DNA of 64,000 nucleotides from positions 1-64,000 of the forward strand of contig NZ_JAHCST010000020.1 of NCBI RefSeq assembly GCF_018476525.1. The letters run 5' to 3'. A program made the translations under genes and the position numbers. Shown here in pieces: positions 37,891 to 49,100 of the stretch (positions are counted from its first letter, which is position 1; each line of letters begins with the position of its first letter). Origin of the DNA: Acrocarpospora catenulata. Its GTDB lineage: Bacteria > Actinomycetota > Actinomycetes > Streptosporangiales > Streptosporangiaceae. The notes under the pieces are model-generated. The model was not told the DNA's origin. It did no database searches and saw only the letters and a program-made list of their open reading frames with translations.

Positions 37891-38643
37891 TCACGCGTCC
37901 CCCTCATCCGGTACGGCGGTCGCGGTGGCCGTCATGTCAGCGCCCGGGAACCCGATGACCGAGAGAAAGAATGCGTCCCAGTGCACGCTCACCCCCACGG
38001 TCACCTCGGTCTGACCACCACCAACCGTGCATTCCGTCAGCTGCACCCCGGCAGCGTCATGGGCGTCGACGATTTCCTGGGCCCGCCCACACACCTCGGC
38101 GTCCCCACGCAACCGCACCTGCCCGTTCCCCCGAAGCGTCTCCTCATCGATCTCGTCGGCGGCCCCCCGAGCCCCCTGCTCGGCGATATCCGCCGCCTTC
38201 AACCGTGAATTGATCGCAGCCCCACCGTCCACGAGCAACCCGGCCAGCAGGAACACCGCCACCGAAAAGATCACCACAAACACCGACATGGACCCGCGCT
38301 CCCCACGCCGAGCCGCCTCATACCGAGCCGCCCCACGCCGAGCCGCGTCCCTAGCCGTCCCATGCCGAGCGGCCCCACGCCAAGCTGCGTCCCTAGCCGT
38401 CCCATGCCGAGCGGCCCCACGCCAAGCTGCGTCCCTAGCCGTCCCATGCCGAGCGGCCCCACGCCGAGCCGCCTCATGCCGAGCCGCCTCATGCCGAGCC
38501 GCCTCATGCCGAGCCGCGTCCCGAGCCAGGTCCCGAGCCAGGTCCCGAGCCAGGTCCCGAGCCGCCTCACGCCGGATATTCGCACGCCTGCCGCCGAGAA
38601 CCGTTCCGGCGATTTCACGAAAAGCCCTATGGCGAAGGTTCAT
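37891..38643 (-). CDS. TadG/TadE-like pseudopilin with Arg-rich repeat leader
   Basis: A 250-aa protein. The C-terminal part is a standard Tad minor component: ERGSMSVFVVIFSVAVFLLA transmembrane helix, then VDGGAAINSRLKAADIAEQGARGAADEID and an extracellular domain with two cysteines. In front lies an unusual ~115-residue Arg/Ala-rich stretch built from DNA tandem repeats. The residue five after the GS junction is Phe, not the Glu required for prepilin-peptidase processing, so it is probably TadG-like and uncleaved. ATG 38643 overlaps the upstream TadE stop (ATGA). It lies 99 nt before the LysM-BTAD gene. The leader may be an expansion rather than a conserved part. Confidence 0.83.
   Translation of the reverse strand: MNLRHRAFREIAGTVLGGRRANIRREAARDLARDLARDLARDAARHEAARHEAARHEAARRGAARHGTARDAAWRGAARHGTARDAAWRGAARHGTARDAARRGAARYEAARRGERGSMSVFVVIFSVAVFLLAGLLVDGGAAINSRLKAADIAEQGARGAADEIDEETLRGNGQVRLRGDAEVCGRAQEIVDAHDAAGVQLTECTVGGGQTEVTVGVSVHWDAFFLSVIGFPGADMTATATAVPDEGDA
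38345..38558 (-). repeat. Three consecutive in-frame tandem repeats (42, 15 and 12 bp)
   Basis: Three copies of a 42-bp unit (38345-38386, 38387-38428, 38429-38470; 14 codons, GAARHGTARDAAWR) merge into three or four copies of a 15-bp unit (38463-38522; RHEAA) and three perfect copies of a 12-bp unit (38523-38558; ARDL). All lengths are multiples of three. The first two 42-bp copies are identical. Confidence 0.97.
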
Positions 38644-39404
38644 TCGACCCTCCGGAACTGCTCCAGCGGTACGACCGAATTTCCGGTCATCTGCTTCGTC
38701 GCCCCGAAGCCCAGGAAGTCCAGGTCGAGTTCGCAGGTGACGGTCACCACGACCACGCCGCCCTCGACCCATTCGGTCCCCGTCATGCTCACCTGAGGCG
38801 GGCACTCCGCCCCGAGCACCGACTGCGCCGTCTGATCGGCGGCGGTCCGGGCGGCGTCCTCACTCCGCTGTACCGAAGCCGCCCGAGCCGCGTCCCGAGC
38901 CGCCCCGTTCACCTCTCCCTGCGCCTCGACAACCCGTCCTGCTCCCACCAGGAACATCAGGAACAGCAACAGCACCGGCGCCAACATGACCGCCTCGGCA
39001 GTCATCGACCCCCGCTCCGACCCCCAACGCCGCCCTCGGCCAAGTCTCCTGACCCCATCCCTGACACCGACCCGAACGTCACCCCGGCCAACGGCACCAG
39101 GGGCAGCGGTGATACCACGGATTCCGATACCGCCAAACGCGCGGACCAGAATTTCAGACGCATTCCCGATCGCAATCAAAGGAAAAGTCCGTATTGAGCC
39201 CGAACAACGCCTCAATAGCGCCTGAATCGAGCCCCCAATAAAGGCACGCACAAAAATGGGAGTCGCAGGCTCTCTCAGCACGCGCCGAAATACCGACCGA
39301 CCATCGCCAACGGCGAACTGAATGCCGCCATCGCTGCCAGCACGGCGAGTAATGCGCCCCGGCGGCTCCGGGCGGGAGGTGAGGGTTTCGTGTTCGGGGA
39401 TCAT
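38640..39404 (-). CDS. TadE-like pseudopilin with long N-terminal extension
   Basis: A 254-aa protein. From residue ~131 it is a TadE domain: ERG|SMTAEAVMLAPVLLLFLMF fits prepilin-peptidase cleavage with Glu at +5, then GRVVEAQGEVNGAARDAARAA and an extracellular domain with two cysteines. The first ~130 residues have no family resemblance and come from DNA visibly less GC-rich than the surroundings (about 39130-39300). ATG 39404 overlaps the stop of the preceding gene (ATGA), which argues that the extension is translated. A downstream GTG near the basic RRLGRGRRW stretch would give a normal-sized protein. Confidence 0.78.
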   Translation of the reverse strand: MIPEHETLTSRPEPPGRITRRAGSDGGIQFAVGDGRSVFRRVLREPATPIFVRAFIGGSIQALLRRCSGSIRTFPLIAIGNASEILVRAFGGIGIRGITAAPGAVGRGDVRVGVRDGVRRLGRGRRWGSERGSMTAEAVMLAPVLLLFLMFLVGAGRVVEAQGEVNGAARDAARAASVQRSEDAARTAADQTAQSVLGAECPPQVSMTGTEWVEGGVVVVTVTCELDLDFLGFGATKQMTGNSVVPLEQFRRVE

Positions 39405-40186
39405 TCACAATCCTCGCTTCCGTCGTCGGGGCGGAAACACTCGATGGGGCCGACGGAGCGAGCCGTGATGGTGAAGGTCAGTTCCGGAAGCAGGGGCACC
39501 ACCTGGACCGCGGTGCCGGTGACCTCGACGCCTCGCTGGTCACCTTCTTCGAAAGCGGTGGCTGTGGCGGACTGGAGAAGCTGGGGACCCACGGCTTGGA
39601 TGATCTGTTGAGCCTTGGCCTCGGCTTCCTGTTGCCAGGTCTCAGAAACGCCGGCGGCCCGCGCCAGACGAGCCCCCTCCCGAGCAGCGGCATCGGCCAC
39701 CTGCCGCCCGTGGAACCACAGCGCCATCTGCACCACCAGCAGGACGACAGCCAGGACCACGGGCATCAGAATGGCCAGCTCAATCACCGCCGCCCCCCGT
39801 TCCCCCTTCGGCACCGGCGGTCTCCGCCCCTCACCTCCCGGCACGGCCGACCCCGCCCCCTCGCTCGTGGGCGCGACTGGCCACTGCCCCTCGCCCTTCG
39901 GCGCGGCTGGCCCCTGCCCCTCGCCCTTAGGCGCGGCAGGCCACTGCCGCTCATCCCTCGGCGCGGCTGGCCCCTGCCCTCTCGCTGCCCCGGTTCCACG
40001 ACCAAGGCGGACCTGCTCACGCCCGGAAAGCGCCACGGCACACGGCCGAACCCGCGCCGACCGTTCATCGGACGGGGTAGCAGAAGACGCCGGGCGTGGC
40101 GGCGCGGAGTCCGCCGGGCGCGGCGGGGCGGAGCCCGCCGGGGTGGGTGGTGGGCTCGTGGTTCGGGGGGCAGGGGGTGGGGTCAT
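39401..40186 (-). CDS. TadE-like pseudopilin with Pro/Gly-rich leader
   Basis: A 261-aa protein. The TadE part begins at GERG|AAVIELAILMPVVLAVVL, with Glu at +5 after a prepilin-type junction, then FHGRQVADAAAREGARLARAAG and a beta-rich extracellular domain ending with two cysteines. The ~135-residue N-terminus is disordered, rich in Pro, Ala and Gly, with repeats of the type APKGEGQ. ATG 40186 overlaps the flp stop (ATGA), so the leader is very probably translated. This is the first of three consecutive TadE/TadG genes. Confidence 0.82.
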   Translation of the reverse strand: MTPPPAPRTTSPPPTPAGSAPPRPADSAPPRPASSATPSDERSARVRPCAVALSGREQVRLGRGTGAARGQGPAAPRDERQWPAAPKGEGQGPAAPKGEGQWPVAPTSEGAGSAVPGGEGRRPPVPKGERGAAVIELAILMPVVLAVVLLVVQMALWFHGRQVADAAAREGARLARAAGVSETWQQEAEAKAQQIIQAVGPQLLQSATATAFEEGDQRGVEVTGTAVQVVPLLPELTFTITARSVGPIECFRPDDGSEDCE

Positions 40187-40410
40187 TGGCCGATGCCGCC
40201 GCCGTTGCTGCCGCCTCCGCCGCCGAAGGTGCTGCCGATTTCGGCGGATTTGCCTTCGACGAGGCCTTTGATGAGGGTGGCCAGGCCGAGGGCGACACCG
40301 GCGATGATCGCGGTGATGATGACCCACTCGACCGCGGACGCCCCCCGGGTGGGGGCCGTGCGGGCTTGGTGGATGCGGACCTGGAGCAGGGCGATCAGGT
40401 AGGTGAACAT
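40183..40410 (-). CDS. flp: Flp-family major pilin precursor
   Basis: A 75-aa prepilin. An N-terminal leader ends TRG, and the mature protein begins ASAVEWVIITAIIAGVALGL with the invariant Glu at +5, followed by ATLIKGLVEGKSAEIGSTF and a Gly-rich tail. The cleavage and hydrophobic helix match Flp/Fap class IVb pilins that polymerise into the pilus. The start directly abuts the tadC stop (TAG-ATG) and the stop overlaps the next gene. The prepilin peptidase must be encoded outside the window. Confidence 0.93.
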   Translation of the reverse strand: MFTYLIALLQVRIHQARTAPTRGASAVEWVIITAIIAGVALGLATLIKGLVEGKSAEIGSTFGGGGGSNGGGIGQ

Positions 40411-41410: not shown

Positions 41411-42313
41411 TCATGAGGCCACCCCTGCTTCCTCCGGACGAGGGGACGGCTCGGGGCGGTGGTAGGGGGCCAGGATCCGGGCCGGTTTGTCGAACCTGGC
41501 CAGGCGCCGCATCCAGGCGAAACCCGCGCCGAACAGTCCCGCCACCACGACCAGCACGGCCTGGCCGAGGAGCGTGTTGTACTCCGCCACGTACGAGCGG
41601 TTGAAGATGACCAGGAAGGCCGCGAAGGCCAGGGCGGTGCCGACGACGATCTGCACGCTGCGGCGGGTGGCGCGGCGTTCCGCCTCGACGCGGCGGCGCA
41701 TGTCGAGTTCCTCGCGGGCCGAGAGGGCGAGCGCGGAGAGCACGTCGCGCAGGCCGGGCCCGCGCAGTTTGGAGTTGAGCACCAGGGCGGCCACCACCAG
41801 GTCGGCGGACGGGTCGTCGAGTTCGTCGGCGAACATGCGGAGCGCGTCGCCGAGCGCCATCCGGGTGTGCATGCGGTCCACCAGCGCGCGCAGGTGCGGC
41901 CGGAGGGAGGGCGCGGCGGCCCGGATCGACACCGGGATGGCCTGCTCCAGTCCGGCCGCCCCGGCGATGGTGTCGCGCAGGGACTCGGTCCAGGCGGCCA
42001 GCCCTTCCAACCGCCGCATCGAGGCCCGCTCCTCGGCCGCGCCTCCGGTCAGCCCCCGCCAGGCGATCACCAGCAGCACCGACCCGGCCGCGACCACCGG
42101 CCACCCGGTCAGCACCAGCACCACCACCCCGGTGATCACCGCTACCGCCGTCCGGGTGGACAGGGTGCGCACCAGTTCCTTTCGCCGCGCCTTCCCGTCC
42201 GGCCCGGCAGGCCGGGGCCGGAGGCCGTAGATCGACAGGAAGAGCAGGTAGAGGCCGCCGCCGATGGCGGCGCCCGCGAACAGCACCAGCGGATCGAACA
42301 GACCGGCGGGCAT
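41411..42313 (-). CDS. tadB: Tad pilus inner-membrane platform protein TadB
   Basis: A type II secretion F-family protein of 300 aa with an N-terminal membrane helix, two helices at ~45-80, the cytoplasmic F domain (LRDTIAGAAGLEQAIPVS, DDPSADLVVAALVLNSKL, LREVL-like GLRDVLSALALSAREEL) and two C-terminal helices. ATG 42313 shares its A with the tadA TGA (TGATG). A GTG three codons earlier is also possible but sits only 2 nt from the GAGGGAG ribosome site. Confidence 0.93.
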   Translation of the reverse strand: MPAGLFDPLVLFAGAAIGGGLYLLFLSIYGLRPRPAGPDGKARRKELVRTLSTRTAVAVITGVVVLVLTGWPVVAAGSVLLVIAWRGLTGGAAEERASMRRLEGLAAWTESLRDTIAGAAGLEQAIPVSIRAAAPSLRPHLRALVDRMHTRMALGDALRMFADELDDPSADLVVAALVLNSKLRGPGLRDVLSALALSAREELDMRRRVEAERRATRRSVQIVVGTALAFAAFLVIFNRSYVAEYNTLLGQAVLVVVAGLFGAGFAWMRRLARFDKPARILAPYHRPEPSPRPEEAGVAS

Positions 42314-43611
42314 CAGGACCACGCTCCCTCGTAGCCGTGCGCGGCCAGGTCGTCGATGCAGGCGATGGGGGCGAGCGGGACGGCGACGCCGTTGCCGTTG
42401 TTGGTGAAGATCTCCGAGGAGAGCACCCGGCCGTCGCAGCCGGCCACCTCGCGGACGGAGGAGACGAAGCGCCGCAGGGTGCCGCCGCGGTGGTAGTCGT
42501 TGCGTTTCTCGATGAAGACGACGAAGTCGATGGCGCCGGCGATGAGCATGTGGGTGGCCTCGATGGGCAGCCGTTCCTCGGCCTGCAGGGCGTAGGTGGC
42601 GATGCGGTTGAAGACCTCCATCGAGGAGTTGGCGTGGATGGTGGAGAGCGAGCCGTCGTTGCCCTGGGTCATCGCGTTGAGCATGGTGACGATCTCGTCG
42701 CCGAGGACCTCGCCGACGATGACCCGGGACGGGTTCATCCGGAGGGAGCGGCGGACCAGCTCGGCCATCGAGATCTCGCCCTGGCCCTCGGAGTTGGGCA
42801 GGCGCTGCTCGAAGGCGACCACGTTGGGGTGGAGCTCGGGGAACTGGTCCAGGCCGAGTTCCAGCGCCCGCTCCACCGTGATCAGCCGCTCGACCGGGGG
42901 GATCTCGTTGGCGATGGCGCGGAGCAGGGTGGTCTTCCCGGCGTTGGTGGAACCCGCGATCATGATGTTCTTCCTGGCCGCCACCGCCGCCGACAGGAAC
43001 CGGGCCACGTCGGGGGTGAGCGTGTTGTTGCCCACCAGGTCGCTGAGGAAGACCTTGCCCAGGCGGGCACGCCGGATGGAGATGGCGGGGCGCACCGTCA
43101 CGTCCATCACCGCCGAGAGCCGGGAGCCGTCCGGAAGGCGCAGGTCCAGCTGGGGGTTGGCGGTGTCGAACGGCCGGGAGGAGAGGCCGGAGTAGGCGGC
43201 CAGGATCTGGATGAGCTCGATCAGCTCCTCGTCGGATTCGGCCACCGGCTCGTGGGTGAGCTCCTGGCCGTCCGCGTAACCGACGAAGACCCTGTCACAG
43301 CCGTTGATGTCGATGTTCTCGACCTCGGGGTCGTCCAGCAGCGGCTGGAGCCGCCCGACGCCGAAGAGCGCGGCGTGGATGCCGGCGGCGAGCCCCTCCT
43401 CTTCCTCCACGCTGGGCGGGGTGCGGCCGACGCCGATCTCGCCGCGGGCGAATTCCTCCAGCACCTGGGCGATCAGCGCCCGGGCGAACTGCCGCTCGTC
43501 CTCCCCGCTCATCGGCCGCAGGCCGCTGGCCTGGTCCAGCCGCCGCTGCCGGGCCAGCCGGTCCCCGACCTCCTGCCGGAAACGTTTCACCAGGGCGTGG
43601 TCGACGGTCAC
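42313..43611 (-). CDS. tadA: Tad pilus assembly ATPase TadA/CpaF
   Basis: A 432-aa secretion ATPase. The N-terminal domain (~1-120) leads to the arginine-containing region RPAISIRRAR, Walker A GSTNAGKTTLL near residue 218, Asp box, Walker B SRVIVGEVLGDE and the His box STIHANS. It powers pilin extraction and assembly. The GTG start overlaps the stop of the TadZ-like gene (GTGA), and the gene is coupled to tadB. Confidence 0.96.
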   Translation of the reverse strand: MTVDHALVKRFRQEVGDRLARQRRLDQASGLRPMSGEDERQFARALIAQVLEEFARGEIGVGRTPPSVEEEEGLAAGIHAALFGVGRLQPLLDDPEVENIDINGCDRVFVGYADGQELTHEPVAESDEELIELIQILAAYSGLSSRPFDTANPQLDLRLPDGSRLSAVMDVTVRPAISIRRARLGKVFLSDLVGNNTLTPDVARFLSAAVAARKNIMIAGSTNAGKTTLLRAIANEIPPVERLITVERALELGLDQFPELHPNVVAFEQRLPNSEGQGEISMAELVRRSLRMNPSRVIVGEVLGDEIVTMLNAMTQGNDGSLSTIHANSSMEVFNRIATYALQAEERLPIEATHMLIAGAIDFVVFIEKRNDYHRGGTLRRFVSSVREVAGCDGRVLSSEIFTNNGNGVAVPLAPIACIDDLAAHGYEGAWS

Positions 43612-44516
43612 GGCGTCTCCTCACGCTGCCCGGGGACGATGGGCGTGCCGGGACGGGGATAGCCGTCGGGCGGGTAGCCGTTGACCGGGTACCCGTTGGC
43701 GGAGTAGCCGGGGGGATACCCGTTGGCCGAGCGGTGGCGGGCCGAGCGGGACCCGGGAACCGGACCTTGATCTGGGCCGGGCTCGGGCTCGGGGGCGACT
43801 CGGCCGGCCAGCCGGTTGGCCAGTTCGCGGGCGGTCCGGATGAGCAGGCTGCGGTCCAGCCGCCCGCCCCACTGCCCGCGCAGCAGCTCGGCCCCCTTCG
43901 GGTCGTACGCCAGCCCGCCGACGAAGGACACCTCCCAGCCGGAGACGATCCGGCGCACCTCGTCCAGCGAGGCCCGGTACGACCGGGGGTCGGCGATCAC
44001 CACCACGCCCACCGGCCGCTTCAGCAGCGCCAGACGTTCCCGCAGGTGGGCGACGTGATCCAGGCTGGGCCTGGTGAACAGCACGACCTGGTCGGCCGCC
44101 GCGAGCAGCTCGTTGACCTCCGGATGGGCGCCCAGCCGCCCGCAGTCCGCCAGCACGTCGGTGTGCGGCAGCGCGGCCAGCGAGCGCCCGAGCGGCCCCC
44201 AGAGCCAGGTCAGCCCGGCCGCCTGCTCCCCGTTGGCCAGCCCGGCCAGCACGTCGAGACCGCCGACCAGCTTCTGGGTGTGCTCCAGGATCTGTTCGGC
44301 GTGCAGCCCTCGCCGGGCCACCGCGCCCAGGCTGAGCAGGCCGCGCGCGGGGTTGAGCACGCCGCCGTCGGCGCCGGGGAGCCGGTAGGCCAGGTCGCCG
44401 CCGGCCGGGTCGCACTCGGCGAGCAGCACCGGCCGGGGCCAGACGGCGCCGAGCGCCGTCGCGGCCGTGGTCACTCCCGGCGCCCCCTTGTCGGCGGCCA
44501 GGACGATCAGCGCCAC
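43608..44516 (-). CDS. TadZ/CpaE-like ParA-type ATPase
   Basis: A 302-aa protein of the SIMIBI/ParA class. The P-loop is degenerate (AADKGAPGVTTAATAL), followed by VLLAECDPAGGDLAYRLPG, DVLADCGRLG and VLFTRPSLDH. A Pro/Gly/Tyr-rich tail repeats NGYP. In Tad systems such proteins localise the pilus machine at a pole. The GTG start overlaps the cpaB stop by one base (TAGTG). Confidence 0.85.
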   Translation of the reverse strand: MALIVLAADKGAPGVTTAATALGAVWPRPVLLAECDPAGGDLAYRLPGADGGVLNPARGLLSLGAVARRGLHAEQILEHTQKLVGGLDVLAGLANGEQAAGLTWLWGPLGRSLAALPHTDVLADCGRLGAHPEVNELLAAADQVVLFTRPSLDHVAHLRERLALLKRPVGVVVIADPRSYRASLDEVRRIVSGWEVSFVGGLAYDPKGAELLRGQWGGRLDRSLLIRTARELANRLAGRVAPEPEPGPDQGPVPGSRSARHRSANGYPPGYSANGYPVNGYPPDGYPRPGTPIVPGQREETP

Positions 44517-45211
44517 TAGCGTGCCCCCGGCAGGACGGCCAGCGCGATCTCTCCACTGGAGGCGTACTGCGCGATGGTGGGCGAGGCGGCCGCGTCGACG
44601 ATCACGGTGACCAGGCCGGTGGCGGTGCGGCCGGGGGCGCCGACGCTGTGCACCAGGGCGTTGGCGGCCAGGACGCGCTGCGGGCTGGCGTTGGCGCTGC
44701 CCCGGCCGACGCTGGGCACGTAGATCACCTGTACGACGTCTCCCGCGGTCAGGCCCACCGGATACTGCCCCGACTTGAGGGCCAGCCCGACCTGGGCCTT
44801 GCCGGGGCCGAGCTGCTCGCTCTCGGTGGTGACCATCCGCTCGGTGAGCAGCGTGCCGGGCAGCAGGGTGACCGCCGCGTAGGTCTTCAGCACCCGGTCG
44901 CGGAACTGCCAGGCCACGTAGTCGATGCCGGTCTCGGCGATCTGCACCTCCTGCATGGCCGAGGCCGGGATCTGCTGCCCGGCCCCCACCTGCTGGACGA
45001 TCCGGACCGCGGACACCCGGTCGCCGCTCCGCATCACCAGCAGGGTGGTGGCCAGCGCCCCACCCACGATGAGGAGCACGGCCAGGGCGGCCAGGGCCGG
45101 TTTGCGCTCGCGGGGCGGCACAGGCAGTTTCCGGGACGCCGGACCTGACAAACCAGGCCGTTCCGCCGGGCCCGTACGGCTGTCGCGGGCCGGGTTCTCG
45201 GTGATCCTCAT
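44516..45211 (-). CDS. cpaB: CpaB/RcpC-like SAF-domain pilus protein
   Basis: A 231-aa protein with a basic N-terminus, a single transmembrane helix (ALAALAVLLIVGGALATTLL, ~39-60) and an extracytoplasmic SAF domain (VRIVQQVGAGQQIPASAMQE..., LLPGTLLTERMV). A C-terminal beta domain follows (VGLTAGDVVQVIYVPSVG). It is the first gene of the Tad operon, transcribed away from the long intergenic region. In Gram-negative systems the counterpart works with the secretin; in this presumably monoderm bacterium it may anchor the pilus in the wall. Confidence 0.85.
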   Translation of the reverse strand: MRITENPARDSRTGPAERPGLSGPASRKLPVPPRERKPALAALAVLLIVGGALATTLLVMRSGDRVSAVRIVQQVGAGQQIPASAMQEVQIAETGIDYVAWQFRDRVLKTYAAVTLLPGTLLTERMVTTESEQLGPGKAQVGLALKSGQYPVGLTAGDVVQVIYVPSVGRGSANASPQRVLAANALVHSVGAPGRTATGLVTVIVDAAASPTIAQYASSGEIALAVLPGAR

Positions 45212-45496
45212 GGGCGGGGGGCTCCCAGAATCCAGTCAACGCGCATGCGGCCGAGGCCACATGACGAGGAACGGGGTTGATCAAAGCATTTCGGATTCGC
45301 GCGAAATATCACGCCATTATGGACATCCCTGACGGGCCGGACCCCGGAAAACGAGGACCCATGCTTATCGGTTATAGCTCGGCCCGTCAACGAAAAAGGT
45401 ATTTCCGCAGCTAAGACGCAAGATCGTTCACACGGGTAACACAGGTAACATGACTCACAGAGCTTCCTGGGATACTGCCTTAACACGATATAACAA

Positions 45497-45563
45497 CAAC
45501 AAGTCAAGAGACCGGAAATGTCAACGGAAATCCCCCTTACAGAGGAGTTGACAAGACTTGTTG
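45497..45563. repeat. Nested inverted repeats
   Basis: An outer pair, CAACAAGTC (45497-45505) with GACTTGTTG (45555-45563), encloses an inner pair, TGTCAAC (45519-45525) with GTTGACA (45547-45553). The arms are perfect; the left gap is 13 nt and the right gap 1 nt, so a folded structure would have an asymmetric bulge. The inner right arm overlaps a TTGACA hexamer (45548-45553) with no matching -10. Confidence 0.7.
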
Positions 45564-45685
45564 GGCACCCCGAACGGCACACAATGGAGCGATAGCCCAT
45601 ATCAACCCAAAGCGCGCGGAACCCTACTCTCCGTGTCGCGCCAGGCCTACCCAAGGTACCCCACCCACCCCCCGCTCGAAGGAAG

Positions 45686-45993
45686 TTATCCACAGGAACG
45701 TTCAGTGAACATGAATTAGATTCGCGTTCATCAAACCGGTAACGGCCACCTCAGCCGCAGGTAGACGCTCGGATTCCTCCGGGTTTGTCCACAACCGCCA
45801 GAGTTATCCACAGCGTTATCCACCGGTTTCCCCCGTCTTCCACAGCCCGATCGACACCTCTGTCCACAGACCTCAGCGCCCCCAGGAGCCCCACCAACCA
45901 CAGGCTCCGAAGCCCCAGATCCACAGACGCCTCCACCGGGTGCACGTCCAGACCGGGACCCCCGTTCTGGACGCTGTCCAACCTCTGTCCACA
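45686..45993 (+). promoter_or_regulatory. Cluster of DnaA-box-like sequences
   Basis: Perfect boxes: TTATCCACA at 45686-45694 and 45804-45812, and TTGTCCACA at 45785-45793. One-mismatch boxes: TTATCCACC at 45816-45824, and CTGTCCACA at 45860-45868 and 45985-45993. Two-mismatch copies lie at 45836 and 45917. All share the TCCAC core and the same orientation. TTGTCCACA is the preferred Streptomyces DnaA box and TTATCCACA the E. coli one. No dnaA or dnaN gene is nearby, so this is not the canonical oriC. DnaA titration or a DnaA-controlled regulatory region is the likely meaning. Confidence 0.7.
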
Positions 45994-46154
45994 GGTACGC
46001 ACCAAATCCAGATCTGGCCCAGATTGACCACGAACTTGAGGCCCGAACGGATTCCCCGACGTAGTCCCGGTTGAAGACCGATTCCGCATACCAGGCGAGC
46101 CGCCCGGCCCCGCTCTGTACCGTGACCCCGCCCTCACCCCTTTGGAGACCGCCC

Positions 46155-49100
46155 ATGCGGATCACGCTCACCGTGGTCGGACCCCCCGGGAACGCCCGCG
46201 ACCTCCTCGTGGAGGGCGACGAGACCACCACCGTCGCCGCCCTGGCCACCGCGCTGGAGAGCCCGGCCGCCCGCCCCTCCAACGTGGTACGCCTCCCGCG
46301 CGCCCGGGCCCCGTACGGCCTGGACACCGGCCTGGACCGCCACCCCCAGGACCACCCCGACCCGGAGATCTGGCTGGACGGCCGCCGCCTCGACCCCGAG
46401 GCCAGGGCCTTCGGCCTGCTCCGCGACGGCGACCGCATCGCCCTGGACCGGCGGGCCGCCCCGCACACGGTGATCGAGGAACCCGGCGGCATGGTGGAGC
46501 TGCGGGTGATCGGCGGCCCCGGCGCGGGCACGGTCCACCGGCTGGCCCTGGGCACCCATGTGATCGGCTCAGACCCGGCCTGCGCGATCGCCGTACCGGA
46601 CGACCAGGAGCTGCCGCCGGAGGCCGCCGTGGTGCGGCTGGTCCCCTCGGGGATCACGGTGAGCGCGGCCGAAGGCGTACCGACCCTGGACGGCGAGCCC
46701 CTGGGGGAGGCCGTCGCGTGGCCGGAGCGCGCGGTGCTGGCCTGCGGGAACTCGGCCTTCCAGATCGGGTTGATCGAGCCCCCGGACGCCCACCTGGACG
46801 CCCTCCCGGACGGCGGCCTCGCCTACAACCGGCCACCCCGGCTGCGCCCGGCCGACCGGACCGTCCGGCTGGCCGTGCCGCAGGAGCCCAAGAAGGCCGA
46901 GGGCATGCGGCTCCAACTGCTGGCCGCGTTCCTGCCGGCCGTGTTCGGCCTCGTCATGGCGGTGGTCTTCCAGACCTGGTACTTCCTGCTGATCGCCTTC
47001 ATGACCCCGATGATCATGATCGGGCAGTGGGCGAGCGACCGGCGGCACGGCCGCAAGCAGCACCGCCAGGCACTCAAGGAGTACCGCCTGGAGCTGGAGG
47101 AGTTCGAGCGGAAGGTCGCCGACGCCTGCCGCGCCGACGAGCGGGCCCGCAGGGCCGCCGCGCCCGACCCCGCCGAACTACTGCTCACCGCAACCGGCCC
47201 GCGCCGCCGCCTCTGGGAGCGCCGCACCCACGACCCGGACACGCTGCGCCTGCGGGTCGGCCTCGCCGACCTCCCCGCCGAGATCGAATTCGACCAGGAG
47301 CGGAAAGAGCCCACGATCTCGACGAATGTCCCGGTCGCCCTGGCGATGCAGCGCCTGGGCGTCGCCGGAGTGACCGGCCCCCGGCGCGCCGCCCTGGGCA
47401 CCGCGCGCTGGCTGATCGGCCAGGCCGCCACCCTGCACAGCCCTCGCGACCTGGCCATCGTCGTGCTCTCCACCCACCCGGACGCCGCCGACCAGTGGAA
47501 CTGGACCCGCTGGCTGCCGCACTGCACCACGCACACCGTCGACAGCGTCGCCCTGGTCGGCACCGACCCCGAGGCCGCCGCCCGCCGGGTGGCCGAACTG
47601 GCCGCCCTGGTCGCCGAACGCCAGGACGAGGAGAACGCCCCCCTGCTCCGCCCCGGCCGCCTCACCGGGGGCCCGTCCGGCTGGACCGAACTGGGCAGGG
47701 GCGCCCCGAAAGCCGCGGAACCCACCTTCGCCACCTACGACGAGCGCCCGTACGACATCCTGGTCGTGCTGGACGGCGCCCAGGTGCTCCGCGGCCTGCC
47801 CGGCATGCCGCAGGTGCTCCGCCAGGGGCCCCCGGCCGGGGTCTACACCCTGGCCATCGACGACGACCAGGCGCTGCTGCCCGAGGAGTGCGCCACCGTG
47901 GTCTCCTGCGCCGCCGACGGCACGCTCAGGCTCCGGGGCGGCGGCCTGGACGCGCTCGGCCGGATCCGCGCCGACCAGGTCTCCCCCGGATGGGCGGACC
48001 GGGTGGCCCGGGCGCTCGCCCCGCTCCGCGACGTGAGCCGCGACGACCCGGCCACCGCGCTGCCCGGCCAGGCCCGCCTGCTCGACCTGATCGACCTTGG
48101 CCGCACCCCCGGCCGGGACACCCGGGCGATCATCGGGGTCGGCCCCGACGGCCCGTACACGGTGGACCTGCGCCGGGACGGCCCGCACGCGCTGATCGCC
48201 GGAACCACCGGCGCGGGCAAGTCGGAGCTGCTGCAGACCCTGATCAGCTCGCTGGCGGCGGTCAACCGGCCGGACGAGATGACCTTCGTGCTGATCGACT
48301 ACAAGGGCGGCGCCGCCTTCAAGGAGTGCGTACGCCTCCCGCACACCGTGGGCATGGTCAGCGACCTGGACGGCCACCTCACCCAGCGGGCGCTCACCTC
48401 GCTGGCGGCCGAGCTCCGGCGCCGGGAACGGCTGCTGCTGGAGGCGGGCGCCAAGGACATCGACGACTACCTGGAGGCGCGGGACGCGGCCGAGCGCGGC
48501 ACCAGCTGGGTGCTCGGCGCGGCGGGGGTACGGCAGAGCAACGTCACCGGCCTGTTCGGCAGCCCCGTCAGGACCACCGCCCGAGCCGGCCAGGAGCCGC
48601 CTCCCCCGCTGCCCCGGCTGGTGCTGGTCATCGACGAGTTCGCCGCGCTGGTGGCCGAGCTGCCGGACTTCGTGGACGGGCTGGTGGACATCGCCCGGCG
48701 CGGACGCTCGCTCGGCATCCACCTGATCCTGGCCACCCAGCGGCCCGCCGGCGTGGTCACCGCCGACATCCAGGCCAACACCTCGCTGCGGATCGCCCTG
48801 CGGGTGACCGACGCGCAGGAGTCGTCCGACGTGATCGACGGGCCGGAGGCGGCGCAGATCCCGAAATCTCTGCCCGGACGGTGTTATGTCCGATCCGGCG
48901 CGGGGCCTGCGGTGGCCGTACAGACGGCCAGAATCGGCGGGCGGGCGCCGGGCGGGGACGCCCCGAGCGGCGAGGTGCGGGTCACCGACCTGCCGTGGAC
49001 GGCGCTCGGGCGGGCGCACACCCCCGGCCGCGCGGGCGTGGACTCCTCCGGCACCACGGACCTGGCCCGGCTGGTGGACCAGGTACGCACGGCCACCCGC

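Follow-up and report, generated by a model that had tools for sequence, protein, structure and literature searches.

DnaA-type boxes between divergent Tad and EssC-like genes of Acrocarpospora catenulata: a conserved array and its possible tie to a predicted competence regulon

What reads a cluster of DnaA boxes that lies away from the origin of replication? The question is raised by the DNA between a Tad operon and an EssC-like gene in Acrocarpospora catenulata, contained in the 64,000 nucleotides of contig NZ_JAHCST010000020.1 that we analysed as a whole (hereafter the window). A sequence-only reading had pointed out three perfect, three one-mismatch and two two-mismatch boxes within 308 bp, and had offered a DnaA-titrating site, a remnant of a second replicon or a DnaA-regulated promoter of the Tad or EssC-like genes as possible explanations. 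A recount returned the same eight boxes (table 1), and the AT-rich DNA reported beside them is present as described. The eight listed boxes all lie on the forward strand, as had been claimed, but at two mismatches the region has three on the reverse strand too.

Table 1. Box array of the window and its flanking genes, with the basis of each assignment.
Feature	Position	Strand	Basis or remark
Tad (TadE/G-like) protein	37891..38805	-	.
TadE-like protein	39401..40327	-	.
TadA/CpaF-type ATPase	42313..43611	-	T2SSE above cut-off; TadA-family model below its cut-off
Presumed CpaB/RcpC-like protein, first gene of divergent Tad operon	44516..45211	-	Homologues adjoin essC in relatives
AT-rich flank, 46-55% G+C	45301..45600	.	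Compared with 70.5% G+C for the window
DnaA box 1, TTATCCACA, perfect	45686..45694	+	Pattern match; 98-102 bp ahead of box 2 in 26/26 array genomes
DnaA box 2, TTGTCCACA, perfect	45785..45793	+	Pattern match; exactly 19 bp ahead of box 3 in 26/26
DnaA box 3, TTATCCACA, perfect	45804..45812	+	Pattern match, conserved geometry
One-mismatch box, TTATCCACC	45816..45824	+	ATATCCACC at the same place in three congeners
Two-mismatch box, TCTTCCACA	45836..45844	+	TCATCCACA at the same place in three congeners
One-mismatch box, CTGTCCACA	45860..45868	+	GTGTCCACA at the same place in three congeners
Two-mismatch box, AGATCCACA	45917..45925	+	Pattern match
One-mismatch box, CTGTCCACA	45985..45993	+	Three aligned congeners show a gap here
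TACCGT, predicted -10-like hexamer of essC	46118..46123	+	Position ahead of essC
EssC/EccC-like FtsK/SpoIIIE ATPase, 1511 aa	46155..50690	+	FtsK_SpoIIIE above cut-off

The clustering is unusual. Compared with 1000 dinucleotide shuffles of positions 45217-46155, with both strands counted, three perfect boxes were observed (shuffle mean 0.006, largest 1), six boxes with at most one mismatch (mean 0.285, largest 3) and 14 with at most two (11 on the forward and 3 on the reverse strand; mean 3.4, largest 13). Over the whole window the number of boxes is ordinary: its 12 boxes with at most one mismatch were equalled or exceeded in 13 of 100 shuffles.

Across the genome (10.29 Mb in 181 contigs) we counted 69 perfect TTRTCCACA sites, against 29 for the reversed control, and 1275 sites with at most one mismatch. 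With cluster density judged around perfect-box sites only, three or more perfect boxes within about 310 bp are found at the window array, in the stretch C105:96053-96135 and twice in the neighbourhood of dnaA on contig C108; besides the window array, the group on C105 is the one ectopic triplet of perfect boxes that this search returned. The view that the window does not hold the standard origin also stands: the one PF00308 match of the genome lies on C108 and the window array on C95, and the oriC region is denser than the array, with 14 boxes of at most one mismatch in 389 bp (C108:85113-85501). The dnaA/oriC loci of nine genomes use the same 9-mers, including those with T at position 3. A smaller group of two perfect and two one-mismatch boxes occupies the start region of dnaB (L084:4594-4667, equal to C97:88593-88666); the DnaB protein encoded behind it contains an intein.

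The array is conserved in a precise form within a restricted part of the family. Our search pattern, three TTNTCCACA boxes on one strand separated by 85-105 and 9-11 bp (start-to-start distances of 94-114 and 18-20), occurs once each in 26 of 341 Streptosporangiaceae genomes, belonging to 6 of 68 genera, with no occurrence of the reversed pattern; measured from start to start, the boxes lie 98-102 and 19 bp apart in all 26. The bearers include Streptosporangium sandarakinum, S. minutum and S. amethystogenes, Planobispora takensis, two Planomonospora strains, Sphaerisporangium melleum, S. rufum and S. perillae, and one Sphaerisporangium metagenome-assembled genome (MAG). An EssC-like gene follows the array in each of the 26 genomes, and cpaB lies inside the 1.5 kb flanks in 25, starting 1.67 kb from box 1 in the remaining one (G004). 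Of the boxes, these three alone are conserved across genera, and one array (L110) has an additional box 12 bp ahead. The comparison of related intergenic regions, put forward earlier as a check, came out in favour of a maintained site: the boxes are kept in the three testable congeners (G001, G003 and G004), a fourth (G002) falling outside the test as its contig ends 53 bp upstream of essC. Relatives provided 26 loci with 1.1 kb of sequence upstream of essC, two of them from one genome; nine of these have a perfect box and 17 have none. In the seven genomes compared, each with both on one contig, the array lies 1.04-1.40 Mb from dnaA, on its downstream side. A wider contig scan returned at least 119 loci, at least 10 of them near an essC N-terminus and the remainder spread over many phyla.

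Among the 26 array loci the inter-box sequence shows no conservation, and on this ground we rejected an RNA or coding feature as the basis of the pattern; the ORFs listed for 45200-46160 have, judged by eye, no gene-type codon bias, and an Rfam search of 45000-46400 up to E 1 gave no match.

The EssC-like protein matches the NCBIfam EssC and EccC models and Pfam PF16697 below their curated cut-offs, with a weak FHA-type match near its N-terminus. The product of the first gene of the divergent Tad operon gave no Pfam or NCBIfam match; we take it to be CpaB/RcpC-like from its position and from recall. All 26 array loci have exactly one TANNNT within the 75 nt upstream of essC, at a distance of 35-53 nt from its start codon. 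In 13 of these it stands exactly 66 nt after the TCCACA core of box 3, every other offset being represented at most three times; the remaining 13 loci do not keep this distance. The window has 351 bp between box 3 and the start of essC, a stretch occupied by additional imperfect boxes. In genus g31 (Sphaerisporangium, judging by its named members) an ORF lies between array and essC in four of six arrays, with 935-969 bp from box 3 to the essC start, indicating that the array outlives promoter contact there; this persistence argues for a role besides that at the promoter of essC.

The ectopic three-box group on C105 led to a second Tad locus (Tad2), as its neighbours on the two sides are a T2SSF/TadC gene and a DUF4244 (Flp pilin-like) gene. 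In 28 genomes, chosen by hand (mostly array bearers and their relatives, our own genome among them), the 25,525 bp behind tadC (920 bp per genome) contain 55 TTNTCCACA boxes and none of the reversed control, and the 61,612 bp of tadC and its upstream DNA contain one box. At least one box is present in 22 of the 28, at least two in 16 and none in 6; further Streptosporangiaceae Tad2 loci have a box within 1.8 kb in 10 of 10 cases. By family, a perfect TTNTCCACA was found behind the tadC homologue in these 10/10 loci of the own family, 4/5 of f21 and 1/3 of f19, and in none of those of f20 (0/10; by our guess Streptomyces-like), f6 (0/4; by our guess mycobacteria-like), f28 (0/4), f38 (0/2), f10 (0/1) and f39 (0/1). 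In the f21 loci (L327-L330) a TTNTCCACA box is accompanied, at 29-33 bp, by a box with one mismatch.

The same box recurs upstream of yraN-comM, with 32 copies in 34,675 bp (reversed control 0), present in 24 of 30 genomes that were likewise chosen by hand from mostly array bearers and their relatives, the comM flanks being shortened by contig or locus ends in some loci. Alignment of these boxes gave a composite element, TCCACAGAR-N5-YTCGG, in which the box core is joined to an inverted repeat GAAY-N3-RTTC. This composite is present at 16/30 comM loci, 14/43 Tad2 loci (own family and f21) and 5/8 comEC-upstream loci, and absent from 25 Tad2 loci of other families and from nine dnaA/oriC loci. 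A genome-wide search of 17 genomes found 97 sites in 14 of them, all Streptosporangiaceae, compared with one site for the reversed control; one genome each of f21, f20 and f6 had none.

Each composite was assigned to the first plausible ORF behind it, and the products were clustered by BLAST, with Pfam and NCBIfam searches on representatives only. By hand tally, the genes behind the 97 sites are yraN-comM (11), ComEA (11), SSB paralogues (11, of which 4 belong to a weaker SSB-like cluster and 7 do not), the Tad2 pilin (10, two of which, L300 and L302, rest on the Tad2 locus and not on the ORF picked), M23 peptidases (8), DUF4192 proteins (8), an NlpC/P60 cluster (7), a family without assignment (6), Ssd (5), a further uncharacterised family (4), the prephenate dehydratase PheA (2) and single genes (14, of which 11 come from one genome, G029, and are perhaps noise). 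The shares were taken from these sites because a larger table of 107 includes loci chosen for comM, Tad2 or comEC. Our own genome has seven composites, ahead of genes for an M23 peptidase, yraN-comM, the Tad2 pilin, DUF4192, SSB, the NlpC/P60 cluster and one uncharacterised product, and a further one with a single mismatch before comEA. By the expected operon order, dprA would stand behind comM. Judged by its gene content (comEA, yraN-comM, ssb paralogues, Flp pilin, ssd and others), we predict that the set is a competence regulon.

Several members of the set deserve separate mention. The M23 peptidase gene marked by a composite faces the comM operon at a distance of 4-7 kb in several genera and in our own genome (L440, L445, L456, L472 and L085), and its product is possibly a wall hydrolase of competence. 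DUF4192 proteins recur in the set (L435, L441, L424, L434, L431, L459, L464 and L468), their Pfam entry stating an unknown function. One genome (G029) has 18 composites, 11 of which precede genes of no common family (L451-L454, L482 and L485-L490); these are perhaps an extension of the regulon or noise.

The composites also show a fixed promoter geometry. Of the 107 sites, 88 have a NANNNT hexamer beginning at +45 relative to the motif start and 13 have one at +44, with 0-5 occurrences at each of the other 22 offsets between 36 and 59. The picked start codons fall at +56 to +58 in 30 of the 107, which suggests leaderless messages. The box half starts with [TC][TC] in 98/107 sites and has A or G at position 3 in 95/107; it begins with TT in 51/107, and CT, TC and a few other starts are tolerated. 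Extra perfect boxes precede the composite by 18 bp (6 cases) or 29-32 bp (20 cases), a total of 26 in 90 sites over the 40 bp upstream that were examined.

It should be noted that the composite is absent from the window array itself: none was found in 26 array loci or 28 essC-upstream loci, nor at up to two mismatches near 45-46 kb. The tie to the competence set therefore rests on the shared box, the 18-19 bp spacing of the pair and the Tad genes, and membership of the array, which consists of boxes only, in the regulon is something we infer. Its matches to the DnaA 9-mer exceed chance and lie in a promoter region, as in a DnaA-type operator; it is also a conserved box cluster away from oriC, as in a titration site. 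We see the array as one representative of a family of regulatory sites that carry DnaA boxes.

Our preferred explanation, which we regard as evenly poised between right and wrong, is that the cluster is a conserved operator array of the divergent Tad (cpaB and following) and essC genes, recognised by DnaA or by another protein that prefers the same sites. Among the three options of the sequence-only reading, a DnaA-type regulated promoter of the Tad and EssC-like genes is the best supported, given the fixed hexamer distance in half of the array loci and the presence of the box at Tad2 and competence-type promoters. In such a mechanism a protein, probably DnaA, would bind the boxes head-to-tail upstream of RNA polymerase, and the bound array would change the transcription of essC and perhaps also of the Tad operon, making a pilus of the DNA-uptake type and its partner ATPase answer to DnaA or the replication state. 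At the composite promoters, given leaderless messages, the box would span roughly -61 to -53, with the adjoining GAAY-N3-RTTCGG read by a predicted second regulator. As the window has boxes and no composite, its array would either work independently of this second factor or serve as an enhancer-like element further upstream or as a site of titration.

The chances that DnaA itself is the binder appear roughly even. The boxes are identical to those at the dnaA/oriC loci of the same genomes and also occur at the dnaB start region, and most of the 107 composites have the [TC][TC][AG]TCCACA form, which argues for DnaA; against it, A and T prevail at position 3 of the array boxes, unlike the TT(G/C)TCCACA given as the perfect actinomycete box in passages of PMC4285127, and the composite accepts starts other than TT. 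A broader proposal, which we offer tentatively and rate clearly short of even, is that DnaA is the shared regulator of a Streptosporangiaceae competence regulon through which the replication state gates DNA uptake. DnaA boxes together with the second activator site would then drive comEA-comEC, yraN-comM, the SSB paralogues and the Flp pilus, and the window array would put the other Tad/EssC locus under the same DnaA control.

Doubtful, though a serious contender, is the reading in which a dedicated competence activator other than DnaA recognises TNTCCACAG and the likeness to a DnaA box is coincidental; because the operator reading leaves the binder open, the two overlap and their probabilities do not add up. 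Passages of PMC8467076 report that single mutations in a small HTH_17 protein affect com expression and transformation in Micrococcus luteus, which would fit such an activator. So would the composite, where the box abuts the inverted repeat without a gap and its first two bases are relaxed, and the lack of composites at the dnaA/oriC loci. The degenerate Streptomyces DnaA box, however, is close to the relaxed [TC][TC][AG]TCCACA, and a dedicated activator accounts poorly for the stand-alone perfect boxes upstream of the composites, for the window array with its boxes lacking the inverted repeat, and for the boxes at the dnaB start region. No HTH_17 regulator beside cpaB, as in M. luteus, was recognised by eye among the intergenic ORFs of the window and of L065-L067.

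We consider it unlikely that the site serves to titrate or inactivate DnaA in the manner of E. coli datA or the S. coelicolor cluster, holding DnaA and delaying initiation, with the neighbouring genes incidental. Passages of PMC5742627 present box clusters of B. subtilis and S. coelicolor as analogues of datA, and both the consistent location downstream of dnaA in the seven genomes compared and the intact arrays separated from essC by an ORF would suit such a role. That location may, however, merely follow gene order, and several observations speak against titration: the -10-like hexamer at one fixed distance in 13/26 loci, the recurrence of the box in competence-type promoters whose geometry is fixed, and the absence of the strict array geometry from 62 of the 68 genera. 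Chance is very improbable: although the whole-window count of boxes with at most one mismatch is ordinary, the shuffles of the region, and above all the fixed spacing in 26 genomes with none in the reversed controls, refute a chance cluster. A second origin, or an active part or remnant of a second replicon, is scarcely credible. The AT-rich DNA beside same-strand boxes had made a remnant conceivable, but this suggestion fails on the syntenic position of the site beside essC in six genera, 1.04-1.40 Mb from dnaA in seven genomes; moreover, three boxes only are conserved across genera, and the genome's one PF00308 match lies at the denser box region on C108.

Clusters of DnaA boxes outside oriC were reportedly described for S. 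coelicolor by Smulczyk-Krawczyszyn in 2006 and for B. subtilis by Okumura in 2012. As in the window array, several DnaA boxes stand on the main chromosome at a place other than oriC; unlike these clusters, the array has a fixed geometry, a Tad/essC locus and a unit that recurs at competence-type promoters. E. coli datA is similar in having few DnaA boxes beside genes and away from oriC, but the pattern matches in the datA region of NC_000913, which may not be the named datA boxes, differ in orientation and are spaced 162 and 12 bp, compared with about 100 and 19 bp here. An IHF-type site, a feature of datA, was not identified at the window array, where the place between boxes 1 and 2 shows a weak AT-rich patch and no conserved motif. 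DnaA boxes in promoter regions, as found here, are also known from DnaA acting as a transcription factor, and passages of the review PMC8203912 describe dnaA as autoregulated in Streptomyces lividans and in slow-growing mycobacteria; neither "pilus" nor "pili" appears in the text of that review.

The closest parallel for the genes is Micrococcus luteus, whose competence uses Flp pili, comEA/EC and a CpaB-CpaE operon, the Tad genes being common to the window locus. According to passages of PMC12849477 and PMC4322843, two tad loci are essential for its transformation, and in passages of PMC8467076 deletion of a CpaB-type gene lowers transformation 10^4-fold, and mutations in the 5' regions of the CpaB-like gene and the HTH_17 gene divergent from it also affect com expression. 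The Tad genes here thus fit a role in DNA uptake, although transformation is established in M. luteus whereas competence in Streptosporangiaceae is a prediction from sequence. "DnaA" does not occur in these three papers. The competence regulon of M. luteus is called currently unknown in a passage of PMC12849477 (2026), and within the titles and abstract openings of the open-licence literature searched we found neither a link of DnaA to competence or Tad genes nor an earlier description of a composite promoter before competence-type genes. The composite signature addresses this open question of how competence is regulated in actinomycetes, and its fixed promoter geometry before comEA, comM, ssb and the Flp pilin makes both regulon and regulator directly testable. 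If DnaA does read the boxes, replication control and gene uptake would be wired together, and ectopic DnaA-box clusters would gain a function besides titration.

Similar box arrangements were also seen in other contexts. Three Saccharothrix records (L178, L181 and L183) have boxes spaced by 108 and 19 bp, with no essC or cpaB match nearby. Actinokineospora diospyrosa contains copies of a dispersed repeat with two TTRTCCACA boxes at 19 bp, a third about 100-113 bp before them and a similar middle part (L130, L144, L145, L146, L165, L177, L190 and L198), and further records under this species name probably belong to the same group (L220, L222, L225, L233, L235 and L239). In our own genome, a pair of boxes spaced by 18 bp lies at C105:856-882 (L401:856-882), ahead of a gene for a ParA/CpaE-like ATPase.
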